Positions 37,501 to 57,303 of a DNA stretch of 64,000 bases are shown piece by piece (positions within the stretch are counted from its first letter, which is position 1; each line of letters opens with the position of its first letter). The translations under genes and the position numbers were made by a program. The stretch spans positions 14,012,501-14,076,500 of the forward strand of contig OX485808.1 in assembly GCA_950295325.1 (NCBI GenBank). Direction: 5' to 3'. Source of the DNA: Polytrichum commune (Eukaryota; Streptophyta; Polytrichopsida; Polytrichales; Polytrichaceae). The notes under the pieces were generated by a model. The model was not told the origin of the DNA. It ran no database searches and was given only the letters and a program-made list of their open reading frames with translations.

Positions 37501-37625
37501 TCCTACACCTGGACAACATCCTACTAGACCACAACCTACCAAACATAACCAAATACCATAACAAACACTATATTCGTTAAATTGAGACTTTCTCTAGTCT
37601 CAAATTAATATATGGATCAAACAAC
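34590..37625 (+). mobile_element. LINE A, 5'-truncated
   Basis: Plus-strand non-LTR element. It begins abruptly just after a run of ten C at about 34,580-34,590, without an endonuclease domain, and ends in a 61-bp 3' tail (37,565-37,625) that is shared with a second copy at 42,905-42,965. The coding strand is A/C-rich and G-poor, unlike its neighbours. A CCCTAAACC telomere-like motif lies 200 bp upstream. Confidence 0.8.
34600..37580 (+). pseudogene. LINE A reverse transcriptase (ORF2)
   Basis: The frame runs from the linker before RT through the full RT domain: LTKGKAPGPDNIPND, YWKHSKTNMLHKK, NYKPIALVNTIYKL, GFRPQSNTSRQIQT, YITYIDFRNAFGSIDH, FLEPLLRWLDKDN, the catalytic TSTYVDDLAIISDK and IYLGIQLGPSLKWN, then a thumb and C-terminal region ending YHNKHYIR. 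The catalytic Asp pair of YVDD is kept. Three stops interrupt RT: TAG at 35,696 (before LANYKP), TAA near 35,816 (NQ-stop-GFRP) and TGA near 36,103 (TIQ-stop-DTL, where GGN for Gly is usual). No RNase H follows. It cannot make a full protein and resembles the RT fragment at 3,968-4,260. Confidence 0.88.
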
Positions 37626-38092
37626 ATTCCGTGTTCCGAAACTATATTGAGAACGATCTCAAATATATTATATGTTCTAATATCCCAAATCTATTATGTG
37701 TGGACATAAGCACATGTGGTAGAGCACTCAACACCAACTTCATCTACAAAAACACTTTGGGTAGAGCACTCCAAACTAGTTTCACCCAAGAAACATATAA
37801 AATGATTCCTATTATTAGCATGGTCAATAAAATATAGACATTGCAACATACAAAGTGCATGCAATAAATGCATTTTTCTTCAATGGAAAATTTAGTCCCA
37901 AACTTAATAAAAAAAATGAACTTCACAACTGTATTGAAATATAGTAAATGGATATTCATCCAACCCCAAACAATATAGCATTCGCAAGTTCTACCCAAAC
38001 TTTGACCCAAGTTTGAGGAGCACACATATGAGTAATATATATTCGTCGAATTACAGTTTACACTATAATCATGCTAACACAATCCTACCAAC
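37626..38092. other. No recognisable gene
   Basis: AT-rich spacer between the LINE A tail and the DUF7869-like gene on the opposite strand. A short pair AGAGCACTC-AACACCAACTT and AGAGCACTCCAAACTAGTTT near 37,720-37,780 is repeated. Nothing else is visible; it would contain the 3' UTR of the minus-strand gene. Confidence 0.4.
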
Positions 38093-38095
38093 TTC

Positions 38096-41000
38096 TCATT
38101 CAACGTGGGTTGCTTCTTCTGCGATCCGAGCAAGGTTGTCTTTTGCAAAAGTTATGTACTTTTGAGGGATGGACACTGATCCACTATGATTTTTCCGTGG
38201 TTTCCATGCTATGAATATGGAATCTGTATCTACCCAAGATGGACCATGCTCAGAATCCACCTTCCACCGAAACTTAGGGTTTGTATCCCAGCCTGTATAA
38301 TGCCGAACAACATCTTCATTCCGTGCTGTCGGTCGGTAGTACTCTACTTGTATTTGTCGAAAATGAGGGCTGGAAGTTACAAAATTTGGTTTGGACAAAG
38401 CTCTTGCCACCCACACTGGCTTTGCATATGTCTCATCTCCAGGACGCAAAATGAGCATATAACCTTCATGACAATCCACTGCAATGCGGAAAGATGGTGG
38501 CGGACGACTACTAGCAGGCCCCACGTAATGGTCGTCCACATCAAACTCCTCTCGAACCTCTCCATTTCCCAAAAGACTAGCCTCTGAAGCTTGTACATTG
38601 ACACGTGTTTGTGGCCAAAACCCATGCCTTAAAGTAAGGGGTGTATCTTGATGAAGGTTTGCCAAAGCGCCACGAACACGTGTCCAATATTGTATCCAAC
38701 TTCCGTAACGAAGCCAACACGATCCACCAACATCCGCTACCCTCAAACTCTCCCAATATTGTATGAAGCCTGATATGCCTTTACAAATGTCCTCCAAATT
38801 CTTCATGGGTATTGGTTTGCAAGGCTTAGGCTCTCCGTCAGGCAACATCGTCCTTCCTTCCCCATCAACACGCCATACAAGGAGACCCTCCGGCGGGCTC
38901 CAGTCTTGTGATGTGCACAACAACTTGTATTGCATGGCGGGGACACCATCGTCACGCACGTAGAACCGAAATTGTTGTGCCTTCGTATGCCCGATCAATC
39001 GGTGAGCTCCGCTTCGAATATACGGTTCTATAAATGCCTTGAAGTCTGGAACCTCCTCGATCATATGGGGGATGACGGGAATGTTTTCCAAATCCATGTA
39101 CGACTTCATCAACAATGGGATTGTTGGAAAATCCTCCTCGCGCAACTTCATGCTCCACCGCCCAAAGGACGCATCAATATCATCGTGCGTATGGCCTACC
39201 AATAGAAAGGACACAAAAACCTCCTTGAAAATGCCTTTCGCAACCAACAACGACCAATATGCAAAAACATATCTACTTTTATTGTCCTTCGCACAATTGT
39301 CCAATTGGACACGCAGAGTTGGGGGCAACTTCTTGGCAATCACATCTTCACTTGGTGGCTCCGGCAATGAGTGCACGCATACATCTCTTCCATCCAAGAC
39401 CGCTTCATATAGAGGTGTTGATCCCGAGTTTTCAAATAACAATCTTGATGAATAGGACGGCGGTTTCTCCAAATCACGTAAAAGCTTTGCAAATGACCCT
39501 ATCGTGTGGTTTGAATCCGCCAGATACAAATCAAGAGCATAATGAGCATATTTGACATCACCATGCCCATGTGCAATCATTCCTGCAAAGGCAACCCAAT
39601 GGTTTAATATTCAACTATAACACCAAAAAATTCACATGGTGTACATGTATGGCCCCAAGTACAAACCTAAACGCACAAATTTGTGTTTAGGTAATGCAAT
39701 GCAATTGTTATCAAAATCACCTGTAACCGAAACAGGAAGCTTAAAAAGGCCGTCCGTGGCTTTTATTCGATTTGCAAAACATGGTGAGGCTGTTTTGGCA
39801 TGGTCCATCTTGTCATGGATGATTGTAAGGACTTCCAAAGGCCTGGAGATGGACAAAGCTCTATTTGTGTAGTAATCATTACGGTGTGCCTCTTGCATGT
39901 TCACATGCTTGAAATAGTTCATTTGATGTGCGGCATAGGACTCTGTCCCCATCGTGTGTGCATCTCGAAGGCGTTTCAACTTCTCGCATTTGGAACAACG
40001 GGCAAATTTGTCGCCTCGTCTTTTTGTGATGTATTCGCTAAAGTGAGATTTTTTGATAGCACTCAGTTTCGACAACGAAATTGGGTCCAACCCGGCCTTC
40101 TCGCCAACTGCGTTTACGTCCAACAATATGTCTTTCCATTTCGTGCCTGTAGGAAGAACCTTCTCCACAACCTTTTCACCGGTTGCGAGTGTGCGTGTTT
40201 TGTGCGGCATTGCATCGGCAAGGGGGACAATGATGGTTGCCAAAGTGGCTGTTGCTTGTCTCGTTGCTTCTCTTGGTTTCTTTAAGCCCATGTTCCCATG
40301 GTGACGGGCACGGCGGCCTTCATTGGCATACGCGGCTTGTCTATAAAATTCCGCTTTCGACACACCATGAATGGTGTACCATGCCGTACAACACACGTCT
40401 ATGCTCTCAAGGGTGATGACCTTGCGACCCGCTCCGTTCACATGTATCGCCCTATGGACATCAAGTTTTTTGGTGGATCTTAGACGGAAATCTCCAAGCC
40501 ACATTTTTTCACGGATGGCCTTCAATTTATCTCTTGGGAACAATTGGCAACAACGATGTACACAACAATCCTTCGTAGCAACTTCTCTAATAGACTCCTC
40601 ACAGAGCAACCTTTGACATTTACACTTATTTGCAGACGGAGTAGGACGTGTCAATGTTTCGTACTTCCGAAGGCCTTTGCGTGGCCGAATGTTTGCTTGG
40701 AGCTCCTGTTGGATTTGGACGTGTCGTCGCTCATGGTCGCGCAAGCTAACCCCCTCAATTGTCACATTCCTCAACGGCCACCTTCGCAACGAGAACCTAT
40801 GAGTTGGATTGACTTCCGAATGTACGAGTGATTCCAATATAACAACTCCAACATCCTCGGTGCCAAGGGGGTGTTCATCAATGCAATCTTGTGGATGTGT
40901 GTTACAACAAATACCCTCCGCCACAGCAACTCCACTGTCATTAACAAGTACCACATCCAAATTCACCCATGAAGCTCGTGAAAGCCCCGCACATTCCACA

Positions 41001-41164
41001 ATGGGGCAAAAAGGGTCAGATGGCGAAGGACTCCCCAAATGACCTTCATCTGCACTGTCATCAAAACTATCCTCCCCGACAATGTCTAGCTCATCCCCAG
41101 ACAGAGATTGGGTGCTGCCCATGTCTTCAGAGAAGGAATCCCCTCTTCCACCAACTCCCTCCAT
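38096..41164 (-). CDS. DUF7869-like, transposase-derived(?) protein, two exons
   Basis: Exon 1 (41,164-39,667) and exon 2 (39,582-38,096) join with GT-AG sites (CGTTTAG|GTTTGT, CTTTGCAG|GA) to read KFVRLG-MIAHGHGDV, giving about 995 residues. The N-terminus is acidic and Ser-rich. A Cys-rich region follows (NKCKCQRLLC, KDCCVHRCCQLF, then DVCCTAWYTIHGVSKAEFYR), like the region before DUF7869 in known proteins. SKCEKLKRLRD supplies another Cys pair. In exon 2 QLDNCAKDNKSRYVFAYWSL and FLLVGHTHDDIDASFGRWS carry the Asp, Asn and Asp residues of the DUF7869 block, probably an RNase H-like fold related to transposases. The start at 41,164 (MEGVGGRG) is chosen because an acceptor-like TGTGTAG precedes it; 41,185 is possible. 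There are no internal stops, so the gene may be functional. Confidence 0.65.
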
Positions 41165-41365
41165 TACGCCTACACACATGCACATGAAACCTCAACAAAC
41201 ATGGACACAACGTAAGGGTCCAAAAGAATCAAATATTGGAAAATGCAAAACATCACGATGAATGGGGACACTGAGGATCAAGACATTTGCAACACAAATG
41301 CAATGTGAGCTCCCAATACTGTGCGCCAGTCCACAAAATGTTCCACAAAATATTTTGGGTGGGAG

Positions 41366-42150
41366 TTTGGGTCAGCCGACCTAAACCCTGTGGCACCAGG
41401 GATTGAGGGCCATCCCCACCTTGCCCGTGGGATAGGGTCGGGTTCCGGTCGACCGACTCAAACCTTGTACAATGATGGGTTGAGGGCCATTTAGAATTCC
41501 ATCACACTGTGGGGAAAACTTTGGGTCGACCGACCCAATCCTTGTCATGGTCAACTACAACCGCCGAAACTGGGGAAGGGGTTTGGGTCGACCGACCCAA
41601 ACTTTCACAGGGTAAACCCACCCACACTCAGAAGGGGTTTGGGTCGGTCGACCCAAACTTTCACAGGGTAAGTCCACCCACACCGGGAAAGGGTTTGGGT
41701 CGGTCGACCCAAACTTTCACAGTGTAAATCCACCCACACTGGGATGAGGTTTGGGTCGCTCGACCCAAACATTACATATGATGGGATAAGGTTCCTACTA
41801 TGTCCGTCCAAACCTTCTGAGTACCTTGGGTAAGGGCCATTAACAATTCGTTCACGATGTGCGAAAAAGTTTGGGTCGACCGACCCAAACCTTCTAAAAG
41901 GTTTTACGATAAACGCCCACAGTGGGGTAGGGGTTTGGGTCGACCGACCCAAACCTCACAAGGGTCAGAGTAGACCCCCCCCCAACACTAGTGAAGGGGT
42001 TTGGGTCGACCGACCCAAACCTCACAAGGGTCAGAGTAGACTCCCCCCAACACTAGTGAAGGGGTTTGGGTCGACCGACCCAAACCTCACAAGGGTGAGA
42101 CTAGAACCCGCCCACACTACTGGAGGGGTTTGGGTCGACCGACCCAAACC
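41366..42150. repeat. Array of TTTGGGTCGNNCGACCCAAA palindromes
   Basis: About twelve copies, near 41,370 (decayed), 41,461 (decayed), 41,520, 41,591, 41,637, 41,694, 41,750, 41,867, 41,934, 41,999, 42,065 and 42,128. Arms are 9 bp and the central two bases vary (AC, GT, CT). The last four sit in a regular unit of about 65 bp (with CTCACAAGGGTCAGA between). The middle ones sit in units of about 57 bp (with TTTCACAGGGTAA between). No gene runs through the array. Confidence 0.95.
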
Positions 42151-42189
42151 TCACAAGGGTCAGACTGGAACCCGCCAACACTAGTGTCG

Positions 42190-42837
42190 ACCGACGTATA
42201 ATACAGCGTATAATGCGGCGTATAATGCAGCGGATATTGAGAGGTGTGTGGAATTTCAGCTCATTGCAAAGTTCACTGCGGACTTGCATGCTGTGGATAG
42301 GTCCTCATGAACAGCAGCGTGAACGAACCTCGAAGTACAGCTCCGACTAAGAGTTCTCTCTACGAATTCAGGAGTGGGAGAAGAGCAAAAAGAAACCAAC
42401 TTTTGGGGGGTGCGCCCCTTTATACTATCCACCTCCACTTGCCCGACTTCCTCATTGGATGCCTTTCCCGCCTTGTTATTTCAAACCTCCTGACAGAATT
42501 CCCCGTTTTCTGTTTATTGTAGAAAATGCGCATCTTTCAATGCCCCTCTCATACCCCAGCCGTCATATGATTTAGTCTATGATATTTAATCTTTTTTTGG
42601 TTTTGTGTGTATATGACATACGACATTGGGAGGAAGGGTGGCGGCCACATTAATTTTTTCAAGTGTCACAACGGTATATTTTAACCAATATGTATACCCA
42701 ACCACAACTCCATTCAATGCTTTCAAGTGCAAACCTATTTCGGTGGGGTTGGGGCCATTTGGAGGCTGCAATTATGAGAGAGTTTCCAAGGCTTGAGGCC
42801 ATTGTCATGATGAATAAAATTATTTATTTGTCTCCCC
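42190..42837. other. No recognisable gene
   Basis: Starts with a short tandem CGTATAATGCGG-like repeat (42,195-42,235). The rest carries short frames only. Nothing assignable. Confidence 0.4.
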
Positions 42838-43350
42838 TAAACCCTAAACCCTAGAACATTGCTCTATTATCTCGCATGGAAGTGTGGCAATGATAAACGT
42901 ATGTAACACTATATTCGTTAAATTCAGACTTTCTCTAGTCTCAAATTAATATATGGATCAAACAAAAACTTCTACAATGTCACCCTAATGCATCATATAC
43001 ATATTAAATGATGATATTGATCTACTTTAATTCAAACATTACGGTATGGCATTAACCAATATGTAGACAAAAGAAGTCTAAACATTGTGTAACGCCTTAT
43101 GGTAAGAGTCACTAAATACAATAGTTAAAGTGGTTATGAAGATCCTCGCAAGGGGAATTATTAATTTTGAAATCAAATTATGTCATGACAAAGTTCATTT
43201 ATTGTTCCAAATCTGAATTTGCAACAATGCAAGTGACAAGAGCTTTTATATATAATATGTTGTCATCCCTAAACCCTAAACCCTACAATATTGTCCTCTT
43301 CTCTCGCATGCAAGTGTGGCAATGACGAATGTATGTGGACATCGATAAGG
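42838..43350. repeat. Duplicated segment with telomere-like motif
   Basis: Copies at 42,838-42,904 and 43,266-43,338 share CCCTAAACCCTAAACCCTA, then ATTGTC/ATTGCTC, TCTCGCATG and AAGTGTGGCAATGA, ending in GTATGT. The left copy stops at GTATGT where the LINE tail begins; the right copy continues. So the LINE tail occupies a site that is empty in the right copy. Confidence 0.75.
42905..42965 (+). mobile_element. Isolated LINE 3' tail (61 bp)
   Basis: Matches 37,565-37,625 at 60 of 61 positions: AACACTATATTCGTTAAATT, CAGACTTTCTCTAGTCTC, then AAATTAATATATGGATCAAA. It is a severely 5'-truncated insertion of the LINE A family. TGAGACT...AGTCTCA forms a hairpin in the LINE A copy; here one stem base is changed (CAGACT). 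Confidence 0.85.
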
Positions 43351-43446
43351 GGATACTAACTACCAATGTCGCTTTTTAGTTCAATATTTCCATGCTAATT
43401 GAATCCATCCTCAAGTTCACTTCAAGCTTACTAATGTGTGTGAACA

Positions 43447-44280
43447 AAACATCCAAAGTTGAACCCTAAACCCTTATAACATCCACAACATGAAATTATA
43501 CGTATTGACTAAACCATACACCAATTAGTATATCATGTTTAGACGTTCCAAATAACATATTCACATGATCAAGATTGTGGTCACTATAACCTTCCTATTA
43601 GACTCTTCTTAATATATAAACAACATTTCTTATATCTTTCTCCATTATCTAATATACGTGGAGGGAACAATGAACAACAACACGATTGCTTGCATGGCTT
43701 CATTTGATGTTGTGCTTAACCGATTTACGTTTATATCACATTCCATATATTAAATACATCACGAACCATAGTTTATTGGCGACTATGTGATTCATCAAAG
43801 GGAGCAAAACATCCAAAGTTAGACCCCTAAGTCCTAATAACATCCACAACATGAAATGCTATTTGAATAAACACAAGACCAATTAGTATATCACGTTTAA
43901 ACGTCCCAAATAACAACTTAACATACTCAACATCATCTTTACTATAACCTTCCTATAAGACTCTTCTCACCAGTAAGTCAATGTTGTACGTTAATATTGG
44001 ATAGATTAATATGTTATAACCATGACTCCTAAACCCTAAACCCTAAACCCTAAACCCCAAATCTTGTAGTTGTTCAGTGCTACCTCCATATACAAACAAC
44101 ATCAAGTTTGTCTTGCGCCATTATCTAATATACTTGGAGCGAACCTTCAATAACAACATGATTGCTTGAAGGGCTTCATATGATGTTGTGGTTCTCCGAT
44201 TTGCTTTTATATCACATTCCAAGTACATATATCACGATCCATGATTTATTGGCGACTATGTGATTCATCAAAGTGAATAT
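43447..44280. repeat. Diverged tandem duplication, two units
   Basis: Units start at ACATCCAAAGTT (43,449 and 43,810) and share TAACATCCACAACATGAAAT, CCAATTAGTATATCA, CTATAACCTTCCTAT, GACTCTTCT, TTATCTAATATAC, GATTGCTTG, TTTATATCACATTCC, and end TGGCGACTATGTGATTCATC. Unit 2 is about 110 bp longer because of a segment containing four telomere-type repeats. Confidence 0.8.
44029..44058. repeat. Interstitial telomere-type repeat
   Basis: About four tandem CCCTAAA units (TTTAGGG on the other strand), the plant telomere motif. Shorter runs occur at 42,838-42,856, 43,266-43,284, 1,663-1,680, 2,046-2,060, 34,377 and 45,789. Confidence 0.85.
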
Positions 44281-44640
44281 CTAGGGGATACCCTAGAAAA
44301 CTTGAGCATGTTAGCATTTTGAAATAAAGATCATGCAATTCCAAACCCTCACAATATGCACTTGGGGAAGGTATTCATTTAGGCTCCACATTCAAATATC
44401 CTCAATTTCCGAATTTCATGTTGGGGGGTGGGGATTGTCTTTTTTATTCATTGCATATTGTGTGAGTTGTTGGCATCAATGGTAAAGTCTATTGTATTTG
44501 GCACGTAATTGTATTTTTTTTATAACGTGCTCAAACAAACGAGAAACCAATGACTTCAACTTGTTTGGAAAATTTAGTTAATGGTGTCATGTAAGTAGGA
44601 ATTAAGTATTAGTGTTAGCATAAAGTTGCGTTGTAAAGAT

Positions 44641-45598
44641 GTATTAGTTGTATAAATGGTTTAGTTTTTTAGAATACCTCATTTGATGTATACCTTAGGC
44701 TACTCCAAAGTCTATTCAAAATTGTACTACCCGCTAAGGGTTTACTCCTTAGAGGGATGGGAGTTAGGGTTCCCCGTAACCCTATTCCCGTTGCTGCCCT
44801 AATCACGTTGGCACCCTATTCGCGCGGTTGGGGGCCAATTCCCGAGGGTAACAAAATCCCAGCCGCCAAGCATTCTCCTCCTTTCTCTCTCTCTCTCCCG
44901 CCAACCTTTCGCTCCGCGCCTCTTGTGGAAGCGCCGCCTCTCCTGAAGCGCCGTGGCGATTCAGGGTGGCGCTTTTCTTTACATTCCTTCTCCACCCTTT
45001 TTTCTTCTCCTTCCCTCCCTTCTCTTGCTCTAGCGGGAGATTGCACTAGTGTTGCAATATATAGCATTGTTGAAGTGTTTTCCAGATTGTTGAAGGGTTT
45101 TCCAACATTCTGTGTGAGCTTTAGGCAGTGCTTGCGAGAGTTCGAAGTGCGGATGAGTGCATGTGAGTGCTTGTGAGTGCATGTGAGTGCTTGTGAGTGC
45201 ATGTGAGGGCTTGTGAGTGCATGTGAGTGCTTATGAGTGCATGTGAGTGCTTGTGAGTGGTTGTCAGATTAGGAAGTTCTATAAGAGATACAAAAGTGAT
45301 ACAAAAGTGCTTTCAGAGATTTAGTTATTGTTTTGAGAGATTCAGTTGTTGTTTTAACAGACTCAGTTGTTGTTTGAGAGTTACAATTGTTGTTTGAGTG
45401 ATTCTGAAGAGACTCAGGAGTTGTGTGAGAGATTGTGGGTTTATTGAGAGATTCAAGAAAGGTTTGAAATCTTTGGTAGTTGTTTGTGAGTTTTAGCGTG
45501 TCTGCGAATAGGAATTCACTGATTTTGTCTTAGTCGAAGAAGAACACTTGTTCAAAAGCAACCATCTGCAACGACTACAACAGAAACCCTCAGCAAAG
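44641..45598 (+). promoter_or_regulatory. Putative promoter and noncoding first exon of the ParB-like gene
   Basis: A weak TATAAAT lies at 44,651-44,657 and a CT-repeat pyrimidine patch at about 44,885-44,905. A frame of 139 codons at 44,757 has no recognisable product and ends in a tandem repeat. A donor site AAAG|GTATTG at 45,598/45,599 pairs with the acceptor TTTGCAG at 46,108, directly before the ATG. So a 5' UTR exon ending at 45,598 is likely; its start is unknown. Confidence 0.35.
45151..45262 (+). repeat. 20-bp tandem repeat GAGTGCATGTGAGTGCTTGT
   Basis: About five and a half near-perfect 20-bp units, each made of two 10-bp halves (GAGTGCATGT and GAGTGCTTGT). It lies in the presumed 5' UTR exon. 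Confidence 0.9.
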
Positions 45599-45720
45599 GT
45601 ATTGTTTTTCAAGGGGTTCCAATATGTGTTTCTTAATTGACAGTGTTGTAGCATACACAATGCATAAGCATTGTATATGCTACATGCCAAGTTTAAAAAA
45701 CTATATTAAAATAGAACAGT

Positions 45721-45871
45721 TTGGGGAAACGACCCAAACACAGCCTATAGTTTGGGTCGATCGACCCAAACAGCACGATGTGCTTTGGGTCCCTAAACCC
45801 TAAACACAGCCTATAGTTTGGGTCGATCGACCCAAAGCACATCCTGCTGTTTGGGTCGGTCGACCCAAACG
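45721..45871. repeat. Palindromes in the 5' UTR intron
   Basis: Three good copies of TTTGGGTCGNNCGACCCAAA at about 45,750, 45,817 and 45,851, and one decayed copy at 45,721. The centres AT at 45,750 and 45,817 make perfect palindromes. A further decayed copy is at 46,061. Two stand in a short duplication with CACAGCCTATA between. Confidence 0.9.
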
Positions 45872-46108
45872 CAACCTCTACAGTATAAACTTTTCAAGAA
45901 ATCCTTGATGACAATATAAAACGCAAATCCACCTAAGATAACGAAATACCATATAAACATATAAATGAAGTTCTAAAATAACAAGACACTATCCAAAAAT
46001 AAATGCGTTGATGCATTACATTTCCCTTCCATCACGTGACATCTAATCTATTGTGAAGAAGTTTGGGTCGAACGACCGAAACTAACATCCTTGCTTCTTT
46101 CTTTGCAG

Positions 46109-49100
46109 ATGGCCCCAAAGAAAAGACCAGGAGAAAGGTGGTTCATGCTTGCGCCAGACGTGTTATGGCAGGAGCACGAAACACCTCAGGATGACTCATA
46201 TGTCCCTAAGGACAGGCTTGTCCTCGCCTGGTCAATTCAAGTAGTAAAAACCTCCATTTACAAACTGATATTCGTTGTCAAAGTAGGGACCGTGGAAAAA
46301 CATACCTGGGCGACTCTTACGGGATGGGAGGTGGCGTCGGTCCAGTCTTTTGGAGACTACGCAGACGTCATCCTTGAGAACAACGCTGTGCAGAATGCTC
46401 ATATGTTTATGCACCAGTTCGTCGAACCCTTTGACGCTACATATGCAAGGGAGTCATGTGTCGAACCTGATGTAATCAAACCCGAGACAATTTTCATCGA
46501 TGCCAGTACATCGAACACAAAGGTCTCGAGCCGGTTTACGAAACTAAAGCATGCAATCAGCGTGCTCAACAAAGCCCTGCAGAGCAAAACGAAGTCTCAG
46601 CAACCCGTCAGGCGGAAGGTACCCACTGAGGAAGGTGCAGGGTCGTCAAGGCCTCAATCAGTGAGGATGCCGCAACCAGTCCCGGCTAGCTCAAGACGAA
46701 CCACTCCATCGGAGACACCGGCGGATAGCCAGACTCCTACGCCTTCTGGCAGCCGCCAAACAACTCCCTCCAAGAGGGCGAGAGAGTCATCTGTGATGAC
46801 TGACGAGCCAGTCTCTCCAGAATTGCGCATGCCGAAGCCAGGGCAGGAAGTGGATGCAGGGGAGATCCAAAAAATCGTGAACAATTTCACGACCAAGTGC
46901 TCCCATTGCTTTTTCATGGGCAGGGATTTCAAATTCGACGTGAACATCAGTCAGTGTCATCTCGCGCCACCAGAAAAATGTGTCCGGGCAAAAGAAGACG
47001 CCTACGTCGATTGGATAATCGCGCAGATCGTTAGCGAACAATTCAAAGACGACAGGCAAACCATTGTAGTGATGCCCCAGGGACTGAAGAAAATGCCTAC
47101 CCCTGAAATGTGGGCGACAATTCAGAAAGGCGATTTTTGGCTCATAGACGGCCAACACAGCGTTGAGGCTTCCAAGAAAATCCAACTGATGACTGAGTGG
47201 GACGATCCCAACCATCAGAAGGAGAAGTTGAAGGTGTGGAAGGCACTGGTGGTGTGGTCTGACGATGAGACCCGACTGAGCGACATCTCCCGTTACTTTA
47301 ACATGGGGAATAAAAAAAGGGCCTACCAAGCTTCCTGGATAAGGAATATCATGGCCTCGCGGGAGGTGTGGGAGTTCTATGGTAGGCCTCCCAAGGAGAG
47401 GGAGAATACAAAGGACAAGAATCCCAAGTGGGAGGTGAGTATTGTTTGGGTCGATCGACCCAAACTCCTTTTGCAACTTTATTTGTGTACTTTGGGTCGC
47501 TCGACCCAAAGTCTTGTTGCAGTCATGTTTTTTAGTTTGGGTCGCTCGACCCAAAGTCTTGTTGCAGTCATGTTTTTTTAGTTTGGATCGATCGACCCAA
47601 ACTCTTGTTGCAGTCATGTTTTTTTAGTTTGGGTCGATCGACCCAAACTCTTGGTGCAGACACTGGTCATGATATGTTTTGGAAATCACATGTTCATATC
47701 TAACATGCATTCAAATGATTGTTTTGATCACATGCAGGACTTCAAATACCAAATGATAAATAAATTCTCCTCCATTGATAATGCTAGTCACAAACAGAAG
47801 AAATACAACGAGCTTAGAGGGGAGATTTATTTAATAACAGCATCCGACTCCGTTTGGATGAAGTGGAAGAGTGTATTTGAGAAGCATGAGACGGGTGAGC
47901 TCATCGACCCGGACACAGGAATTTTCTTCAACCAAACCACGCGCTTCAAACAAATGAAGCCTCTCGTGAGAGAGTTCTTTAGAACTCTTCAAGGCCTTTC
48001 CGAGACGGAGATGGAGAAGGCGGCGGCGCACATCCTGCATTTCACGCCCACGGCGAAAAGGTGCTGGGTGCACCCGAAGATTGTCTTCTTAAAGCCCAAA
48101 TCCTTCGTCCCTTCATGCTACACCATGAAGGAATGGACTGAGAATAGGAAAAAGAAGACAACTATAGTGCAGGAGCTGCATAAATTGGTGCCGGAGATGA
48201 ATATTGTCGTGGACGGCGAGGTTCATGAGGCTAACTGGAGAGCATTCAAAGCTGAATATAAGTTCACCAGTGCCTCCATGGCGGCTTTAATAAGGGAAGC
48301 GGGGGATGACTTCTTGCGGGCCAAGATGGTGAAGGGTGGGAAGAACCGGGCGCTTCCGGATCACACAGCGCGTGCGTTCTCGAACTTCATCAAAGAGAAG
48401 AAGATTGTCCAGTTTGAAGGGGACGCTTACTTCAACCTTGTCACCTTTGAGCCTTTGAAAATTCAGGGCTGGCCAGGTCAAGACGCCAGAATGGCGATAA
48501 GGACGAAAGCAGGGGGGCGTTTCCCATTCGGAATGATAGATTTCAGGAACATTCCTGGAAGCTCATTTGAGGGTACGATGAGCACACTGTTTTACGACCC
48601 CTTCCTATCTAAGTTCGTCGATTATGCGAGTCCTAAGTTCAGGGAGGTTGATGTCTGGCTATGGATAGTCGAGGATAGGAGGGCGGAGCAGGTGTACGAC
48701 CTTGTCCGGAAATTGCAGCCGGAGTATGCAGTCTCCAAGTCTCACTACATCGCCGCACCGGCGGAGGGGGCCTACACGTCGTTGAAGGACAAGAGGACCA
48801 AGGTCGTCAACGTCCTGTGTTTGTACTTCGTGTACAAAGCGGAGTTGTTGAAGGTGCCGAACCACCCTATATCCCGGATGGACAAGTTCTTCCAAGTTCC
48901 AGATGGGTTAGGTTCCAGCAAATGCCTATACGACGAGGCCAAATACGCAAACTATCCTGCAGATGAGCTGCGGATGGAATTCTACATGCGGATGCTGAGG
49001 ACGCTGACTAGGAGAGGGGACTGTATCTTCAACGTGTTCGGGGGCTCGAAACCCCTCTATGCTGCCATGGTAAGTTACATTCTTTAGCTCTTGCGCAGTT

Positions 49101-50719
49101 TGGGTCGGTCGACCCAAACTAGTCTCTCTCTTGGTTTGGGTCGGTCAACCCAAACTAGATATTGTTTTTGGTCTTGTTTTTTGTCTTGCAAATTCTAATT
49201 TCTATATAACTTGGATTGTGTAGATGTTGGGGTTGAACATCTACTCGTACATAGAGGATAGCGATCTGCAATTTTACAGGACGCAGAAATCGCTGGCAAA
49301 GAAGATGGATATCCTCGATTGGATCCCGGGAAGCTACGTGGACGAGGTTGTTGAGGGGGGTGAGAACCCTCTTGATAGGGTGAGGCGGATCAACCCGGAA
49401 GAAATTGCGATAAGGCAACAACCCAATTACCCGAACCTCTAGTCGGGTTGCATCCGGGCAATCCGTCCCGTACAGGAGGTGGAGAGGTGGAAGAGGAGGA
49501 GGAAGAAGAAGAACACGGAGAGGAGGAAAAGGAGGGGGATGTGGAGGAAGGGGCAACGGGATTCACGCAAGAATCTAAAGCCCCTCAGAGGAAGAAGGCT
49601 ATGCGTGTGGCAACCCCGCAGAGTAAGATGATGCCCGTCCTTACGGTGGACGATGCGAGGGACATGTACTCCAGGGACGCGACTGCCACGTTCCGGGAGA
49701 GGAGGAAGTTAAAGGGAAAGAAGCTCTATGGCGATTACGCATTGGAGGAGACCATTGCCATTAGCAGCGAGGACGACGACGACATTGAGCTCGCCAAACG
49801 GCTCAAATCGGATCCCCCCTCCCCGACAGCGTTCGCAGGCATGGTTAGGGTGAAACCCGAAGTCCTCACTGTGGAGGAAGCCAACGAGAAGATGCGTAGA
49901 GACGAGGAGCAGCGCGTCCGCCTGCAGAGGGCTGCCGCGGAAGAACCCTCCGTGCGGAACGAGGTTGCAGAGCTGAGGGCTCTCCTCTTGGAACAAGAAA
50001 GACTAAGGGCGATGGCCCAACCTCCATCCAGCGCCGACTTGATATCGCAAGTCATACAAGGGATGTGGGCGCAAGGATTGGTGGTGGCTCCATCCAGCTC
50101 GTTTCCGCACTTGCCCCCCGGTTTCCCAGCGCAGAGCATCCCTCAGCACCCAGTGTCACAAGGGTCATTCAGCTTCCAGCACATGATGCGGCCGCCCCAT
50201 GTTCCGTACGCGCCGGTCCAACAAGTGGACGATCCCAACATCTGGCGCGTATCTGGAGCCTCCTCCCCGTTGGGCCGTCCACCACTACGACCCCCCATAG
50301 TGATGGCGCCCCCTCACCAGCCGGACGATCCCAGGATGTTTGGGTCGACCGACCCAAACCCACCCTCGACTGTAGTGCCCCAAGGCGCCTCCCCCGATGC
50401 AGGACAGTTTGGGTCGCCCGACCCAAACCCCGGAGCAGCTCAGTCCTCCCTTGACGAACTTGTGTCTCAAAGAGACACAACCATGTTAGATGTTGAAGGC
50501 CTCCAAGGGCCTGGTGATACTTCTAATCCTAACCAAATCGATGAACCCATGCATGATGCATATGCGGAGATTGGTTTAGGACAAGGGCCTGATGCTCAAC
50601 CTTTGCAGGACAAGGTCCCTAACGTAGGCGGAGAAGGCGGTGGCGAGATAGGTGGGGCACCGGGGACGGTGGAGGCATCCACATCGTCGAGACATGACCA
50701 GGGCGAGGTAACACACTGA
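46109..50719 (+). CDS. ParB/Srx-like domain plus methyltransferase-like fold protein
   Basis: Exons 46,109-47,434, 47,738-49,069, 49,224-49,359 and 49,476-50,707 (or to the stop at 50,719); all junctions are GT-AG and in frame. The ATG at 46,109 follows an acceptor and begins MAPKKRPGERW. Residues 315-430 look like a ParB/sulfiredoxin fold: LIDGQHSVEASKK, then DISRYFNMGNKKRAYQASWI. Exon 2 and 3 residues about 700-905 look like a permuted DNA methyltransferase: FPFGMIDFRNIPG in the motif IV place, a strand-helix VDVWLWIVEDRRAEQVYDLV, then RRGDCIFNVFGGSKPLYAAM and MLGLNIYSYIEDSDLQFYRT as motif I. DPPY is lost, so catalysis is doubtful. An acidic run (GGGEVEEEEEEEEH), a coiled-coil-like EQERLRAM segment and a Pro-rich tail with FGSTDPN and FGSPDPN follow. 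ParB-methyltransferase fusions are known in phages and bacteria. Introns hold the palindromes. Confidence 0.6.
47444..47650. repeat. Five palindromes in intron of the ParB-like gene
   Basis: Copies near 47,444, 47,491, 47,536, 47,581 and 47,629, spaced about 46 bp, separated by CTTGTTGCAGTCATG and T-runs. Centres are AT or CT; the copy at 47,581 has GGATCG for GGGTCG. Reading on from the exon gives a short run of repeated FSLGRSTQSLVAV-type peptide, which is an intron read-through artefact. Confidence 0.92.
49098..49155. repeat. Two palindromes in the next intron
   Basis: TTTGGGTCGGTCGACCCAAA at about 49,099 and a copy with one change (GGTCAACCC) at about 49,135, 15 bp apart, in the intron between exons ending 49,069 and starting 49,224. 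Confidence 0.92.
50338..50429. repeat. Two palindromes inside the coding sequence
   Basis: Copies at 50,339 (centre AC) and 50,408 (centre CC) lie within the long last exon and are read in frame as FGSTDPNP and FGSPDPNP. A third copy with one change follows the stop at about 50,730. Both coding copies have the same phase. Confidence 0.9.
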
Positions 50720-51168
50720 GCCCTCCCAGTTTGGGTCGACCGATCCAAACCTCCTTGGTCATTGTCTTGTTGGCGTGGTCTTGTCCCCCCTAGCTATGAG
50801 GAACTACACCCCCCCGACGCACCCAACAACGTGCTCCCCCCGCGATCCCCTTCGTCTCACCTCACTCGACTACGCTCAACCTTGGCGGCGCGCAACCAAT
50901 TTTGTAGATGTACAATTAGGATAGTGTGAATGCCCTCGTTCACCGCGCCCCCCCCCCTCAAATTGTACATAGAGATTTGTAACAATAAAATTATTATTTT
51001 TGGCGCCCATATGTTAGCATCCGTGTCCCAATGTATGTTGTTCCCCTTGTATGTTTTTGTTGCCACCAATGGTCCAATTCTTCTTGTGTTTGCACAAAAT
51101 TTCCGTTCTGCTTGAATTAAACATAGCATAACATAGTCCTCGCCGCCTTCTCTCGCTCGTCGCCGCAG
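50720..51168. other. Intron or intergenic region before the FCP1-like exon
   Basis: It can be an intron: the donor GAG|GTAACA at 50,707/50,708 and the acceptor CGCCGCAG at 51,168 are both phase 0. It also carries a C-run and an AATAAA-like ACAATAAAATTATT near 50,985 that could end the upstream transcript. The sequence cannot decide between the two. Confidence 0.4.
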
Positions 51169-51981
51169 GGATCGGAGCATAGCGTCGTGGCTCCCCACCG
51201 GTCCTCCCCGAGGAGCGTGGAGGACAGCGCGGTGGTCCCCCCGATTTTGCCCTCCCCGTCTCCGCCGCCCAAGACACGGTTCCTGGTGCTAGACCTCAAC
51301 GGGGTCCTCGTCCAGTGCGTGCACTGTCCCAAGGTCCCCACGGTGCCTTTCTGCAAGCCCGAGGACGGGAACTACGATGGTCCCCCCGCGTACATCAAAA
51401 GCAAGCTAATGTACCTCCGCCCGTGGCTTCGGCGCTTCCTGCAGGTCGCCCTATCCAAATGGTGGGTGATCGTGTGGAGCTCCATGAAGTCCGAGAACAC
51501 CCAGGCCGTCGTGGAGTTCATCTTCAAGGGACTCCAACCCCCGTGCTTGGTCCTAGGACAGGATTCTTGTAAAACATTGTACACCCCCGAGGGCAGGGTT
51601 GTGAAGAAGCCCAACAACCCCGCCGTAAACCAATTTCTTAAGGTCTTGAAGCCAGTCGTATGGGATCAGCGTCCGACCATGGTCGGCTGTCCCTACGACG
51701 TTCGCCCCACCCGTGACAACACGTTGATGGTGGACGACAGCGCTTCCAAGAACATTTTGAACCCGACCTCGAACTTCATAGTTTGCCCCACGTGGACGGT
51801 CGAGAAGGTCCGAGACCGCTTTTTGTTAGACCTACTTAAGTACATTCAAACGCTCGTGGGGAGCGGACTACCCGTGCCCCGGTTCCTTAGTTGTAATCCG
51901 ATAGGCGAAAGATACATGGATCCGAAGGACTATATGTACAGAGAGTTGTACGCTCACGCGAAATATAATAAACTCATTTGA
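51169..51981 (+). CDS. FCP1-like HAD-family phosphatase domain protein
   Basis: After the acceptor at 51,168 the frame begins GSEHSVVAPHRSS and reaches FLVLDLNGVLVQCVH, the HAD motif I with nucleophile Asp (DLNGV in place of DxDGT/V; Asn at the second position is frequent in plant FCP1-like paralogues). VIVWSSMKSENTQAVVEFIF is motif II. LKPVVWDQRPTM and NTLMVDDSASKNILNP are the later motif, with the DDS pair. The family dephosphorylates Ser/Thr or peptides such as the RNA polymerase II CTD; the substrate here is unknown. The domain is about 190 residues, normal for FCP1-like proteins. It ends YNKLI at 51,981. It may be the last exon of the ParB-like gene or a separate gene. Confidence 0.8.
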   Translation, partial: GSEHSVVAPHRSSPRSVEDSAVVPPILPSPSPPPKTRFLVLDLNGVLVQCVHCPKVPTVPFCKPEDGNYDGPPAYIKSKLMYLRPWLRRFLQVALSKWWVIVWSSMKSENTQAVVEFIFKGLQPPCLVLGQDSCKTLYTPEGRVVKKPNNPAVNQFLKVLKPVVWDQRPTMVGCPYDVRPTRDNTLMVDDSASKNILNPTSNFIVCPTWTVEKVRDRFLLDLLKYIQTLVGSGLPVPRFLSCNPIGERYMDPKDYMYRELYAHAKYNKLI

Positions 51982-52102
51982 GATACTACATGGTGTGCCA
52001 TTGTGTGTGATATAATATGCCTCAATTGTATATCGATTTTCTCATGCTCCCCCCCCTGGCCCCCTCCCCTTGGGTTTTGTTTGTTTTAATTTTCCCATCA
52101 GC

Positions 52103-52921
52103 GTTTGGAGCCCTCAATTGACATCATCAGCGAATCAAACTTGGGGAGCTTCTTCTACGAGACCGTCTACGATGCCGCGTCCACCATCGACTACTCCAAG
52201 GAGCCTATTGACGCCGGCGTCGTCGATAGCCCCCCACCCAAGCAAATCTTCCGGCCATCTCCGTCCCCGTCGCCGCTCAAGGGCATAAATCGCAAATGCG
52301 TCCGGACGTCCCCGTCTCGGCCCGGCGGCAGTAGTACACCTCAACGGCGGCTGCGGATGGACGCTCGGCCTACGAAGAGTGGCACCCTTTCTATTCCTTT
52401 GCGGGACGCATTGCCCCTCCTCGCCGACTCCGACGGGAACGCCCCCGGTGACAAGGTGAACCCCCCCCCCCCCAAAAACATGGTTAACCGCGCATTACAA
52501 TCATCCGGCACTTAAAAAATGAACGTGTGACACGTTTGGGTCTTCCTCCCTAAACTAACACGTGTGTTCTTGCATTCACGCGTTGCAGGTTGCTCCCACC
52601 CGTAGACCTATGCGGGCTAGTGCGTCCATCGAGTTGGAGCGTTTCTACTCCATGACCAGAAATGCAAGACAGTCCACTTCATCGTATTCGAATTCTTCGT
52701 CGTATAATTCGGGCGGCCGACGGAATCCAAAATGTGTTATTGATGGCGGTCACCCCAAGAATGGCTATAGTCGCGGGGCGGAGATTTTCAGGAATGTTGA
52801 AGCAATGCGAGCAAAAGAAGCCGCAGCAAAAGAAAAAGAGGCAAAAGAAAAAAAAGCAAAAGAAAAAAAAGCAAAAGAAAATGAAGCAAAAGAAAAAGAG
52901 GTAGTCTCCGAGGCTAGATAG
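52103..52921 (+). CDS. Two-exon basic/charged protein of unknown function, partial
   Basis: An exon from the acceptor CCCATCAG (52,102) to the donor GACAAG|GTGAAC (52,455) joins in phase 0 to an exon after GTTGCAG (52,589). Together they read PSIDIISESNLGSFFYETVY, a Ser/Pro/Arg-rich middle, ADSDGNAPGDK-VAPTRRPMRASAS, IELERFYSMTRNAR, and end in a Lys/Glu repeat (AKEKEAKEKK) with VSEAR before the stop at 52,921. The start exon is not visible; it could be part of the FCP1-like gene through an alternative splice, because the upstream reading has no ATG. No domain is recognised. The run of four to five KEK units is low complexity. Confidence 0.4.
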
Positions 52922-53065
52922 GCCATAGTAGGCGTAGGGTTGTGAGCCATAGGCAAGAACATTTTGGGTCGCACTATCCAATGGATGTGTGGTGTTAGCA
53001 TGCTATGCATTTTACATGCCATAATTTGTATGTTTTTTTTGCAATAATATAAGTGTCACATGATT

Positions 53066-53300
53066 TCCCCTTCAATATGGTCTAAGGTTTGGATTGCCCT
53101 ACCTAAACCATCACAAATATGAGTTTGGAATATTTTGTATGTTATATTATATTGGTTCACATATTTCCCCTTCAATATGATCTATGGTTTGGATTGCGCT
53201 ACCTAAACCATATTCATACAAGTTTTTGTGCGATAATATAAATGTTTTAAGATTTCCCCTTCAACTTGGCCTAAGGTTTGGATTGCCCACCCTAAACAAT
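53066..53300. repeat. Decayed palindrome array
   Basis: Three units about 90 bp apart contain GGTTTGGATTGCNCTACCTAAACC (about 53,091, 53,186 and 53,275; core shown in part). Compared with TTTGGGTCGNNCGACCCAAA, most changes are CG to TG/CA. Each unit also has TTTCCCCTTCAA on its left side. Confidence 0.75.
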
Positions 53301-53433
53301 CCCAAATATGAGTTATTAATGGGGTTCTTGTTCTAAACACCCGCTTCAAAGTGTTCGCATCTTACAACTTTCTCCAATATGTGTTCCATTTATCCTTGTT
53401 CTTATTTATGTGATTATCTCAAAATGCCCAAAA

Positions 53434-55520
53434 AGTCTCAATTTAACGAATATAGTGTTAACACAATAATAGAACAAAAAAATGCCAAAACATACGCTAA
53501 CTACCTTACTTATGTCCAAACAAAGGATAGAAAATTCATACAACCACCACTAAAAATCACCAACCTCAAAACAACCATCCAAGAATGCAACCCGGATAAA
53601 GACATCCTAGTCAATAAACCAACCATACAAATACACACCTCGGAAGCCAATGTCTACAACGAAAATGGGAACCACGTCGCTACCCTCACCATAGAAAGAC
53701 TACAATATGGCTATGGAGCCAATTCTCTCACAACAACTTTCAACACCTAACCAACTTCTTACACCACCACCACAAAACTTCGAAACTGAAATACTATGGC
53801 TCATCCAAAGATATATAACTATCCTCCCCAAGAAGAAACCAAAAATAATCCAATCAACAAACCTCCACCAAACATTACACCCTGAAATTACCAAAGTGTT
53901 AATTAACTCATTTCAAATCACACACTCATATTACTCATCCCCCCTCACTTGCCCCATCCAAATTACGCAATACAACTCACCGCACAACCGAGATATAATA
54001 TTTGGATCGATGGGACACGCAAAATCCTCTAAATGGACAGAAATAGGACTAGCCTTCCCTACGGACTACAACACAACTGTAAAAGCTATCCACTGGGCTA
54101 GAATGGCTGCCAAAAAAGACGAGAGAACGATCACCGTCCTAACAGTCAAGCATAAAGACTGGACATCACAACAACTCCCACTCACCACAAAAGCCGATAT
54201 ACATGTCATGGCTACAATACCACCACATACCATACAATATAAACCCACGCCCGAATGGCCAAAATACTACCAATACGTCGAACCATCACTCACATCAATC
54301 ATATGTATACACAATCAAACAACCCTAACCCCAAACGTCCAAACCCCACATACGCTAAAACAAGTCCTACACCAAACAACAAACACACACATAGATGCCC
54401 ACCTCAACAAACCCACCCTTACACATTACAAAGTCAAATTCTCCAATGCATGGAAAACCGCCCCCAAAATAAATATACCACACACCAATAACTCCACCAC
54501 AACACCTATACCGGACACATATAAATACATCCACCCACTCAAATTTCATCCACAACAATGTGTATATACAGATGGCTCATTCATCCCGCCAACAAAAAAT
54601 TATGAAGTACAAATAGTGGGCAACACTGCAGGATCAGGTGTATATAGCCCCAATAACAACACACAGATATCAAAAAGATTACATGGCTACCAAAATATAC
54701 TCAGAGCCGAACTAAACGCCATACTCATAGCCATCAAAAATATAAAAGTTACCCAAACATACACACATCTATTCACTGACAACCTTAACAACATATACCT
54801 AATAAACAATCACATTCAACACCCCACATCCCAACACCACCACCCAGATAAACTACTCATAGCAGCCATAGTGCGACAAATATATTGGACCCCACAACAA
54901 ATCCACATACATAAAGTCCGAGCACACTCAGGCATCACATGAAACGAATTAGCCGACGAACTCGCAAATGAAGGGACAACCCAAGAAAAAACAACAAGCA
55001 CCCCACACATCCACATTGCCCATCCAACCCCATACTAGCTAGCCAGTTGTCCAACAACCACACACGACGGCGCCATCCGCAACCTACGCACATTCATATC
55101 AAAAGAACATGGAAACCAAGAAAAAACCTTTGCCAAAACCAAATTTCCATACGTTATCAAATTTCCATACGACAAATTGTTATCAAACACCCAAATAAAT
55201 CAGAAACTCTCTAACCACTTTTGGCATAATGACAAAATACCAGATACCCAAATCACCCAAATACTAAAATTTTGATATGCCCAATATATGGGCAACCACA
55301 TGAAAAACATATTTTGGCCCCTCACACACCAAAACCCCAACTGCACACTATGTCATAGGAACGAACGAGACACATGGCCCCCCCGGGTAGATCACTCATA
55401 CATGTATTTAATAACCCATGTGCGACGGAAGGGTATTTATCATGGGGCTATTTATCTAAGAAATTGGAACTCTTTACACCCTATTAGTACATATAAATCT
55501 AAATTTTATCATTTTAGATG
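53434..55520 (+). mobile_element. LINE B fragment with 3' half of ORF2
   Basis: The left boundary has a 26-bp inverted copy of the LINE A 3' tail (53,434-53,459). The plus-strand coding sequence then contains a unique block (53,960-54,300) and an RNase H domain, and ends with a Cys motif (NPNCTLCHRNERD) near 55,350. CACTA 2 begins 130 bp to the right. The plus strand is A/C-rich, as in LINE A. Confidence 0.75.
53707..55030 (+). pseudogene. LINE B RNase H and upstream domain
   Basis: The long frame holds HNRDIIFGSMGHAKSSKWTE, IGLAFPTDYNTTVKAIHWAR, MAAKKDERTITVLTVKHKDW and then the RNase H blocks: QQCVYTDGSFIPPT (Asp), LRAELNAILIAI (Glu), HLFTDNLNNIYLI (Asp) and IHIHKVRAHSGIT, then a stop, NELADELANEG (His...Asp). 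All four catalytic positions are kept. The TGA at 54,940 lies where Gly is usual, and a TAG at about 55,036 lies where the fragment at 1,712 has Trp. A frame change near 53,710 separates an upstream piece (YSVNTIIEQKNAKTYANYL). The block before RNase H resembles a Dam-like N6-adenine methylase in pattern, but I could not confirm this. It is non-functional as it stands. Confidence 0.8.
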
Positions 55521-56139: not shown

Positions 56140-57045
56140 CTATTTAGTACATATAGCTCGAGACATGCATGTGGGGAGTGTCTTTTTCATGCAAACTCCC
56201 TTGCTAGTGTTCGGCAACATTGTCTTCACAATGTAGATCCTCCTCCCTAACTTCCAACGCTCACTGACATCTTCCGCGGTCAAAACCTTGCATCCCGCCA
56301 ACATAGGGTTCTGAGATGAGCGGTCAATATCAATGTATGTGTCGCGAAGACCGTGGTAGTCAGCATCCCTGCCTATTTGCAGTGCTTGAAAATCTGGTCC
56401 TCCATCCACCCTTGACATGACTCTACATCCTCGTGGCTCCCTCCGCAAAACTACTTTCCATCCATCATTCCCCCCATCATCCACAAAAAAAACTTGTTGC
56501 ACATGAAGGGAAAATACAAATGAGTCCGCTGAATAAGGAATCAACCGATCAAATTTGAAGAGTGTGAAACCATACTCATCGCATTTCATAGTCGCGCGGG
56601 CGCCACTTTTATTTGCTTGTGCCCATGTGCAATACAACACAACAACCTCAAATTTGCCATAGTCCACGCTTATTATCTCCTCCACCCACCCAACATATTC
56701 TAGATTGCTTGTCCTCATATTCCTGTCGCTACTACTAGACCGACAAGATTGTAAAAACGTAGCGGCGACACCGCTGTCACAAGTAGACAAATTCACTTCA
56801 GCTCCACGTACTCTTATGTGATTACCGTACGCATACATTGACCTATAACCTTTTGCATTCCTTGAGGGTGGCAACAACAGTGCTCGCACATCATCGGATA
56901 TTCCATCCCCCCTCGCAATGTCCTCATCCACCGCGCCATGTAGCCATTCCATGAATGTTACATGTCGTGAATCATTTCCAACCCCAACACGTCTTCCTTT
57001 CCTCCGCCTTTTTGCCCCCTGTTTGGCTTGATCTCTTATGCTCAT
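56140..57045 (-). CDS. DUF4216 protein of CACTA element 2
   Basis: A 301-residue open frame starting MSIRDQAKQGAKRRRKGRRV has a basic N-terminus and the DUF4216 pattern: GYRSMYAYGNHIRVRGAEV, SNLEYVGWVEEIISVDYGKF, KCDEYGFTLFKFDRL, then QQVFFVDDGGNDGWKVVLRR and EPRGCRVMS. The counterpart in CACTA 1 aligns over the whole domain. In plant CACTA elements this domain often lies 3' of tnp2, and it may originally have been a C-terminal part of that protein. The function is not known. There are no internal stops in this copy. Confidence 0.85.
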   Translation of the reverse strand: MSIRDQAKQGAKRRRKGRRVGVGNDSRHVTFMEWLHGAVDEDIARGDGISDDVRALLLPPSRNAKGYRSMYAYGNHIRVRGAEVNLSTCDSGVAATFLQSCRSSSSDRNMRTSNLEYVGWVEEIISVDYGKFEVVVLYCTWAQANKSGARATMKCDEYGFTLFKFDRLIPYSADSFVFSLHVQQVFFVDDGGNDGWKVVLRREPRGCRVMSRVDGGPDFQALQIGRDADYHGLRDTYIDIDRSSQNPMLAGCKVLTAEDVSERWKLGRRIYIVKTMLPNTSKGVCMKKTLPTCMSRAICTK

Positions 57046-57303
57046 TTCATTTTTATACCTCCTGCAGCGTCCACGGTTACATCCACTTAGTTACACGGTT
57101 ATCCCCTTTCTTCCTCCCACTTCCACTTAACTACATTCTATAAAACACAGCTAGTCATTTTCTCCAACACTGTCACTACATATAGTGCGCCCCGGCTTTG
57201 ATATGACTATGAAACATATATGGTGCCAATGTGCTTACTCCCTATACTCTTGTAGTATGTCAGCATTGTTTATGACAAACTCGTGAATCCAATGTTGTAA
57301 GTC

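Follow-up and report, generated by a model that had tools for sequence, protein, structure and literature searches.

A multi-copy DNA transposon of Polytrichum commune carries an accessory gene with likely ParB-like and probable degenerate methyltransferase-like domains, and a palindrome that its product may bind

We analysed a 64,000-nucleotide stretch of the Polytrichum commune genome (assembly GCA_950295325.1, contig OX485808.1, positions 14,012,501 to 14,076,500 of the forward strand; hereafter the window, to which coordinates refer unless another sequence is named), in which a preliminary description had picked out 46109..50719 as a spliced, plant-type gene joining a ParB-like domain to a degenerate, permuted methyltransferase fold. 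This odd-looking plant gene is accessory cargo of a multi-copy DNA transposon. Its product likely has a ParB-like domain and probably a methyltransferase-like domain whose catalytic motif has been lost, and the element is studded with arrays of a 22-bp palindrome. The explanation that we prefer, at slightly less than even confidence, is that the accessory protein binds the palindrome arrays of its own element and controls element expression.

The gene is cargo of a multi-copy DNA transposon

The transposon spans 15.9 kb (37564-53459) and is bounded by 28-bp inverted repeats that are 100% complementary, the left one (AACACTATATTC...) at 37564..37591 on the forward strand and the right one at 53432..53459 on the reverse strand. 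Each repeat is adjoined by a copy of the target site duplication AACA (37560..37563 and 53460..53463). The insertion target was a long interspersed nuclear element (LINE), whose frame is open over 95 codons with a single AACA, compared with 13 codons with both. We counted 672 occurrences of the exact 28-mer in the 408-Mb genome (330 forward and 342 reverse) and none of the control. A 4-bp duplication was present in all 15 end pairs checked: the five pairs on the sequence designated C1 for which both ends were in hand, read by eye (the window element and elements with AAGT, ATAA, TATA and ATCT), and ten of ten further pairs. Other stretches from C1 contained a single end or ends that did not match. 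One of the ten is a short element of 4.8 kb with the duplication CACT (C1:42393157-42397936), probably a non-autonomous derivative.

The accessory gene recurs with these ends. Exon 2, exon 3 or the continuation of exon 3 was found at the expected distance from both ends in ten of ten terminal-repeat pairs probed, and exons of the gene were found at 10 of 11 places on C1 chosen by the palindrome described below, the exception being a locus without any element gene in the 10 kb analysed (L024). The lone palindrome at this locus (C1:4880340) has no exact terminal repeat closer than approximately 900 kb; it may be the relic of a former copy or have an origin of its own.

On the strand opposite to the accessory gene, the element carries a DUF7869 gene (38096..41191, reverse strand) composed of two open reading frames (ORFs; 38096-39610 and 39632-41191), the first of which matches PF25273 with E = 4.2e-41. 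On the basis of its position and conservation, the DUF7869 protein is presumably the transposase of the element and of its family, which is marked by AACACTA ends and 4-bp duplications; the name DUF7869 was not found in the literature searched. Although the termini contain CACTA, as in CACTA (En/Spm) elements, we rejected that label because the duplication is 4 bp rather than 3 bp and the transposase differs. No Transposase_21 (PF02992)/tnp2 gene was detected among the scanned ORFs of the element, which gave DUF7869 and NIF. Parts of CACTA-type elements with Transposase_21, DUF4216 and DUF4218 lie elsewhere in the window (20993-22105 and 56140-57825, both on the reverse strand); CACTA content and TTTAGGG-type repeats give the genome a plant-like character. 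Within the transposon, 42904-42970 is a near-copy of its left end, either a nested end fragment or a rearrangement. The LINE-type element split by the transposon (34506-37563 and 53464-54942) has matches to RVT_1 and RNase H and a chromodomain match below the cut-off, and its RNase H ORF has an additional, unexplained match to PCIF1_WW (E = 3.6e-8).

Exon structure and selection in the accessory gene

The accessory gene lies on the forward strand and begins with exon 1 (46109..47434; 442 codons, with the ParB-like region at about residues 260-430), intron 1 (47435..47737), exon 2 (47738..49069; 444 codons, with a methyltransferase-like C-terminal part), intron 2 (49070..49223) and exon 3 (49224..50707), which is acidic and proline-rich. 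We compared 11 copies, that of the window included, and used nine of them for the splice junctions, leaving out two damaged ones. Introns 1 and 2, both of phase 0, are flanked by GT..AG at identical codons in nine of nine copies, with intron lengths of 154 to 303 nt. Support for these two introns comes from this comparison of copies.

A third intron in the preliminary description (49380 onwards) was rejected, as the seven other copies translated are all open across it. In these seven copies (from ten others in the set) the frame of exon 3 continues without an intron into the last ORF of that description; two copies are open to the end (...GEVIH) and the others meet a later stop, a frameshift or the end of the sequence. 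Since all seven keep a single frame, we infer a one-nucleotide frameshift in exon 3 of the window copy. Thus, the first two of the three junctions originally described hold, whereas the third is a frameshift artefact.

Beyond the exon 3 ORF we found a donor, GAG/GTAAYR (after ...QGE; the slash marks the junction), and an acceptor, CCGCAG/GGNTCGGAG, both conserved in eight of eight aligned copies. The stretch between them, a putative intron 3 of phase 0 (50708..51168), has many insertions and deletions and holds one palindrome (50730), as introns 1 and 2 hold palindromes. The putative exon 4 that follows (51169..51981) encodes a NIF/FCP1-type HAD domain of 270 amino acids (PF03031, E = 3.5e-13), and its ORF has no methionine ahead of the catalytic motif. 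We consider it likely that exon 3 is spliced to this exon; the full protein would then probably comprise about 1,650 amino acids, and the gene probably extends past 50719. A stop codon just within the putative intron is conserved in the same eight copies, so a shorter product is possible. NIF/FCP1-type phosphatases usually carry DxDxT. The HAD ORF (51169-51981) reads DLNGVLV, in which the second aspartate is replaced, and activity of this domain is doubtful. The original outline of a spliced gene at 46109..50719 is therefore sound for exons 1 and 2 and for the motifs, all of which are present at the places given (DGQHSVEASK, FNMGNKKRAYQ, VDVWLWIVEDRR and the split FNVFGGSKPLYAAM/MLGLNIYSYIEDSD), but it probably stops short of the gene end and had missed the transposon.

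A full-length exon 1 without stops is present in six of the 11 copies, and a full-length exon 2 without stops likewise in six. The remaining copies carry one to six stops, frameshifts or truncations, which fits a transposon family with dying copies. Exon 2 proteins are 79-97% identical to that of the window copy. The pairwise ratio of non-synonymous to synonymous change (dN/dS) was 0.03-0.2 where it could be computed, apart from near-identical pairs, for which it was 0.37-0.41; for 15 of the 28 exon 1 pairs, synonymous change was too high to compute it. We conclude that the accessory gene is under purifying selection.

Divergence along the element is uneven. Between the window copy and the copies at L015/L016, the divergence at four-fold sites is 2% in the DUF7869 gene and 8% in the HAD exon, compared with 38% in exon 1 and 25% in exon 2. 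At the nucleotide level, the left 5.6 kb are 96-100% identical and the right 2.7 kb 94-98% identical, compared with 64-92% between approximately 43.2 and 50.7 kb, non-coding DNA included. Selection on silent sites as the whole cause was rejected, as the block from about 43 to 50.7 kb has diverged in its non-coding DNA too; for the same reason exchange between element lineages is the simpler explanation, and from these alignments the accessory module seems to have been exchanged in this way.

A 22-bp palindrome is arrayed in the element

In the copies examined, the palindrome, GTTTGGGTCG-NN-CGACCCAAAC, forms arrays upstream of each of the two genes and within introns. Searching the window with the form TTTGGGTCG-NN-CGACCCAAA gave 27 sites with up to three mismatches, compared with 0.04 expected. 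Twelve sites form array A (41366..42148), which immediately precedes the DUF7869 gene, four form array B upstream of exon 1 (45751..46081), five form array C in intron 1 and two lie in intron 2; the remainder comprise one in the putative intron 3, a weak one at 52963 and two in exon 3 (50339 and 50408). Hence, 25 of the 27 are non-coding, although half of the element codes. Clusters stand at comparable places in other copies, and at least one site within two mismatches was present in all 18 stretches of further elements examined (20 were fetched), the most diverged included.

Genome-wide, the AT-centred palindrome occurs 1,661 times and its control not at all. We measured the distance to the nearest exact terminal repeat for the first 50 of these sites, all of which are on C1: it is below 20 kb for 48 and below 10 kb for 42, where 4% and 2% would be expected by chance. 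Grouped into clusters, 11 of 13 on C1 lie within 20 kb of a terminal repeat, only exact repeats being counted.

The symmetry of the site is itself conserved. Across 12 stretches, the window included, the right arm was exact at 230 and within one mismatch at 264 of 279 sites with an exact left arm, the left arm being fixed by the search and the right arm and outer G/C being free to vary. Conservation covers 10+10 bp; the two bases at the centre are almost unconstrained (0.2-0.5 bits), and just outside the arms the information is at most 0.5 bits and then drops to about 0.05 bits. The tandem units around the palindrome range from 32 to 78 bp and vary by copy while the palindrome stays constant, and the arms are unchanged in copies that are merely 79% identical in exon 2. 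Both arms end in CG, so binding could be sensitive to methylation. A search of IMG/VR with the 22-bp palindrome returned no stretches.

A likely ParB-like domain and a probable degenerate methyltransferase-like domain

Exon 1 likely encodes a ParB-like domain of the DGQHR type. The motif DGQHSVEASK (47147..47176, forward strand) corresponds to the ParB/DGQHR motif IDGQH[R]xxEA, which reads IDGQHSVEASKK in the window, with the arginine replaced by serine or asparagine. A scan of IMG/VR with a degenerate DNA pattern for IDGQHxVEA gave 42 stretches, and all 42 contain IDGQHRVEA within an open frame (141-1,487 codons) with flanks that look alike. The pattern dictates most of the motif and several stretches are near-identical, which leaves 33 distinct pieces; because the 42 matches were partly fixed by the pattern, we place our confidence in this domain no higher. 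Three pieces were put to Pfam: two matched DUF6551 and one matched GmrSD_N only, below the cut-off. We take DUF6551 to be linked to the ParB superfamily, with sub-threshold matches to ParBc_2 and DndB as the support. The profile of the moss family matched the 33 viral pieces with a probability of 95.9% and a score of 58.4 (best of 100 column shuffles, 18.7), a probability that overstates the case given that the viral relatives were picked by the motif and that the confident alignment spans 20 columns. A sub-cut-off Pfam match of exon 1 residues 96-293 to GHBP (E = 6e-4) was rejected, as it was gone in a scan of residues 261-442.

The C-terminal part of exon 2 probably encodes a degenerate methyltransferase-like domain of the beta class, in which motif I is kept and the catalytic motif IV is lost. 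Motif I, of the FxGxG type and placed after motif IV, is represented by IFNVFGGSKP (49025..49054, forward strand), which aligned in register in profile comparisons. RGDCIFNVFGGSKP fell on motif I of nine phage ParB–methylase fusions (probability 4.3%, equalled by none of 100 shuffles), and motif I matched 86 viral beta-class methylases in an hhalign alignment of 36 columns, with a probability of 41.9% and a score of 33.7, whereas 60 shuffles reached at most 23.9. These 86 were selected, on ORF length and the presence of xPPx as motif IV, from 120 stretches collected with the pattern GDxVxDPFGGSGT, which itself contained the FGGS form. An hmmsearch with the same 86-methylase profile gave E-values of 0.33 to 31 only. 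Scanning IMG/VR with a motif I pattern gave four stretches, two of them in open frames of 39 and 53 residues that are not relatives. At the proposed place of motif IV (48590..48604, forward strand) the window reads FYDPF in place of the catalytic [DNS]PP[YFW], and the copies read FYDPF, FYEPF or FYKPF, the first position varying among D, E and K in paralogues; catalysis is therefore unlikely.

Curated models and structures did not name either fold. The ParB and N6_N4_Mtase profile matches that the preliminary description had expected came from none of Pfam, NCBIfam, PHROGs and PDB, the last searched by sequence with exons 1 and 2 and by profile with the ParB part; the exon proteins also gave no result when searched against phages and IMG/VR. 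The structure prediction also suggested there is represented by single-sequence models of low confidence (below). Of the two domains first described, the ParB-like one stands on the DGQHxVEA motif and the match to the 33-piece profile while lacking a Pfam model and a significant match to the nine fusions, and the methyltransferase-like one stands on motif I in register and on FY[D/E/K]PF at the place of DPPY while lacking a curated model or structure.

Discussion

We propose that the accessory gene belongs to a DNA transposon of autonomous type and that its product would combine a DGQHR-type ParB-like domain, a methyltransferase-like domain without motif IV, an acidic linker and, probably, a HAD domain joined by a further splice. 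The protein, probably as a dimer, would bind GTTTGGGTCG-NN-CGACCCAAAC upstream of both genes and in introns and so coat the regulatory DNA of its own element. Expression of the coated element would then be controlled, through either anti-silencing of the kind known for VANC or autoregulation, and the methyltransferase fold, being dead, would act not as an enzyme but as a reader of DNA bases or of S-adenosylmethionine, or as a scaffold. ParB-like domains are typical of partition and modification proteins in bacteria and phages. A self-recognition protein is the simplest account that we can offer of a cargo gene under purifying selection, a symmetric operator in regulatory DNA and a domain of partition or modification type. 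That the accessory protein, and not another, is the reader of the palindrome we hold at somewhat less than even confidence, a figure lowered because the sites are split almost evenly between the two genes. Anti-silencing as the outcome is more tentative still; it is placed first because of the VANC precedent, with autoregulation close behind.

Several observations weigh against this proposal. Binding of the palindrome and any effect on chromatin are predictions that may or may not hold. Two palindromes lie within coding exon 3, two of the 13 clusters on C1 have no exact terminal repeat within 20 kb, one of them without an element gene within 10 kb, and about half of the copies have damaged exons. 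Twelve of the 27 window sites lie upstream of the DUF7869 gene and 14 lie in or upstream of the ParB-like gene, a split that leaves position alone without the power to name the reader. On the side of the protein, exons 1-3 are unrecognised by Pfam, NCBIfam and PHROGs models, and exon 1 and its pieces have no Pfam match to ParB_N (PF02195) or DUF6551. The ParB part matched the nine phage fusions, which were chosen independently of the window, with a probability of 1.0% and was equalled by six of 100 shuffles, which is not significant, the best alignment again falling on the DGQH motif. All 42 viral stretches retain the arginine of DGQHR, where the aligned copies have serine or asparagine, and both single-sequence AlphaFold models of the accessory protein are at a predicted local distance difference test (pLDDT) score of 33.

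The split of the sites leads to the strongest rival explanation, which we regard as unlikely: that the palindrome is a site of the DUF7869 transposase, for transposition or for repression of its own promoter, and that the ParB-like protein does something else, such as bridging the ends or regulating the segregation of excised circles. Array A stands directly upstream of the DUF7869 gene, each end has a degenerate sequence resembling the palindrome in its vicinity (TTTGGGTAGAGCACTCCAAA at approximately 37756 and TTTAGGTAGGGCAATCCAAA near the right end), and the three-mismatch site at 52963 is 0.5 kb from the right end. Transposase sites normally lie in the outer ends of an element. Here, however, sites with up to one mismatch are missing from the outermost 3.9 kb at the left end and 2.7 kb at the right end, and the 14 sites that belong to the ParB-like gene or closely precede it also weigh against this explanation.

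The failure of curated models raises another explanation, that the likeness to ParB and methyltransferases is fortuitous and that the cargo is an unrelated DNA-binding transposon protein. It would account for the empty Pfam, NCBIfam, PHROGs and PDB searches, the pLDDT of 33, the hhalign probabilities of 1.0% and 4.3% against the nine phage fusions and the shuffles that equalled the ParB part. We consider it improbable given that the IDGQHxVEA peptide and its flanks recur in open frames of DGQHR proteins in all 42 pattern matches, that the two motifs stand in the right order and that the methyltransferase match was equalled by none of 60 and none of 100 shuffles.

A more elaborate form of self-recognition, assembled in the plant nucleus from prokaryotic parts, would have the ParB-like domain load at parS-like palindromes and spread or cluster copies, the dead methyltransferase read methylation of the two CpGs flanking the centre, and the FCP1-type domain act on the carboxy-terminal domain of RNA polymerase, so that the transcription or silencing machinery of the host is switched on element DNA. 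We think this version very unlikely; if it were true, the transposon would switch host machinery on its own DNA. Least probable of all is that the accessory protein still works, constantly or conditionally, as a DNA methyltransferase with a non-standard motif IV and marks the palindromes, as proposed for algal proteins: the order of ParB, motif IV place and motif I matches that of phage fusions and motif I is kept in all copies covering it, but [DNS]PP[YFW] is absent and its first position varies among D, E and K amid strong purifying selection.

Genes of this kind are already in print. ParB-like proteins with N4/N6 methyltransferase domains have been described as accessory proteins of green, red and brown algal transposons (PMC12477816, which cites Iyer et al. 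2011 and Petroll et al. 2025), among them a protein of 1,104 amino acids encoded on the strand opposite to the transposase in Sola1-1_Ec32 of Ectocarpus, and were suggested to bind and modify their own element. The earlier view of the moss gene as a eukaryotic offshoot that lost DPPY, without a described family in plants, is thus right about DPPY but gives way to transposon cargo with published algal counterparts. As far as the available descriptions allow comparison, the algal and moss systems share a large DNA transposon, a gene opposite to the transposase strand and ParB-like and methyltransferase-like domains. They differ in that the moss element has lost motif IV, probably has the HAD exon attached, and has DUF7869, AACACTA ends and 4-bp duplications; it also has an array of palindromic operators, whereas the accessible part of the algal report mentions no operator. 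Phage fusions of ParB_N and N6_N4_Mtase, such as QGJ85541.1 of a Streptococcus phage, share the domain order and motif I, but retain DPPY, are compact (417 amino acids) and lack introns and a HAD domain; the ParB_N match of QGJ85541.1 is itself just below the cut-off. Viral DGQHR/DUF6551 proteins share the IDGQHxVEA core and look-alike flanks, but keep the arginine that is serine or asparagine here.

The closest likeness in arrangement is to VANC of Arabidopsis VANDAL, also a transposon accessory gene accompanied by motif arrays in the non-coding DNA and introns of its element; the VANC motifs are short and lie in changing tandem repeats (PMC5735166, as far as the text was accessible). Unlike VANC, with which a Pfam scan of exons 1-3 found no shared domain, the moss element has a motif that is a 22-bp palindrome and is the same in the subfamilies examined. 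In the literature searched, largely at the level of titles and the starts of abstracts, we found no account of this element or its palindrome, nor of a catalytically degenerate version or a HAD fusion: the palindrome and terminal-repeat strings gave only matches that are unrelated by title and abstract start, and among the papers listed for ParB combined with transposon terms the Ectocarpus paper was the only relevant one.

The element itself seems to display the target of its accessory protein, a 22-bp palindrome at promoters and in introns whose arms are kept while the accessory genes are near saturation at silent sites. The question of what such transposon accessory proteins do thereby becomes directly testable. 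If our proposal is correct, the system would also add to VANC another way of achieving sequence-specific anti-silencing, and provide a case in which a methyltransferase has been turned from an enzyme into, presumably, a binding module.

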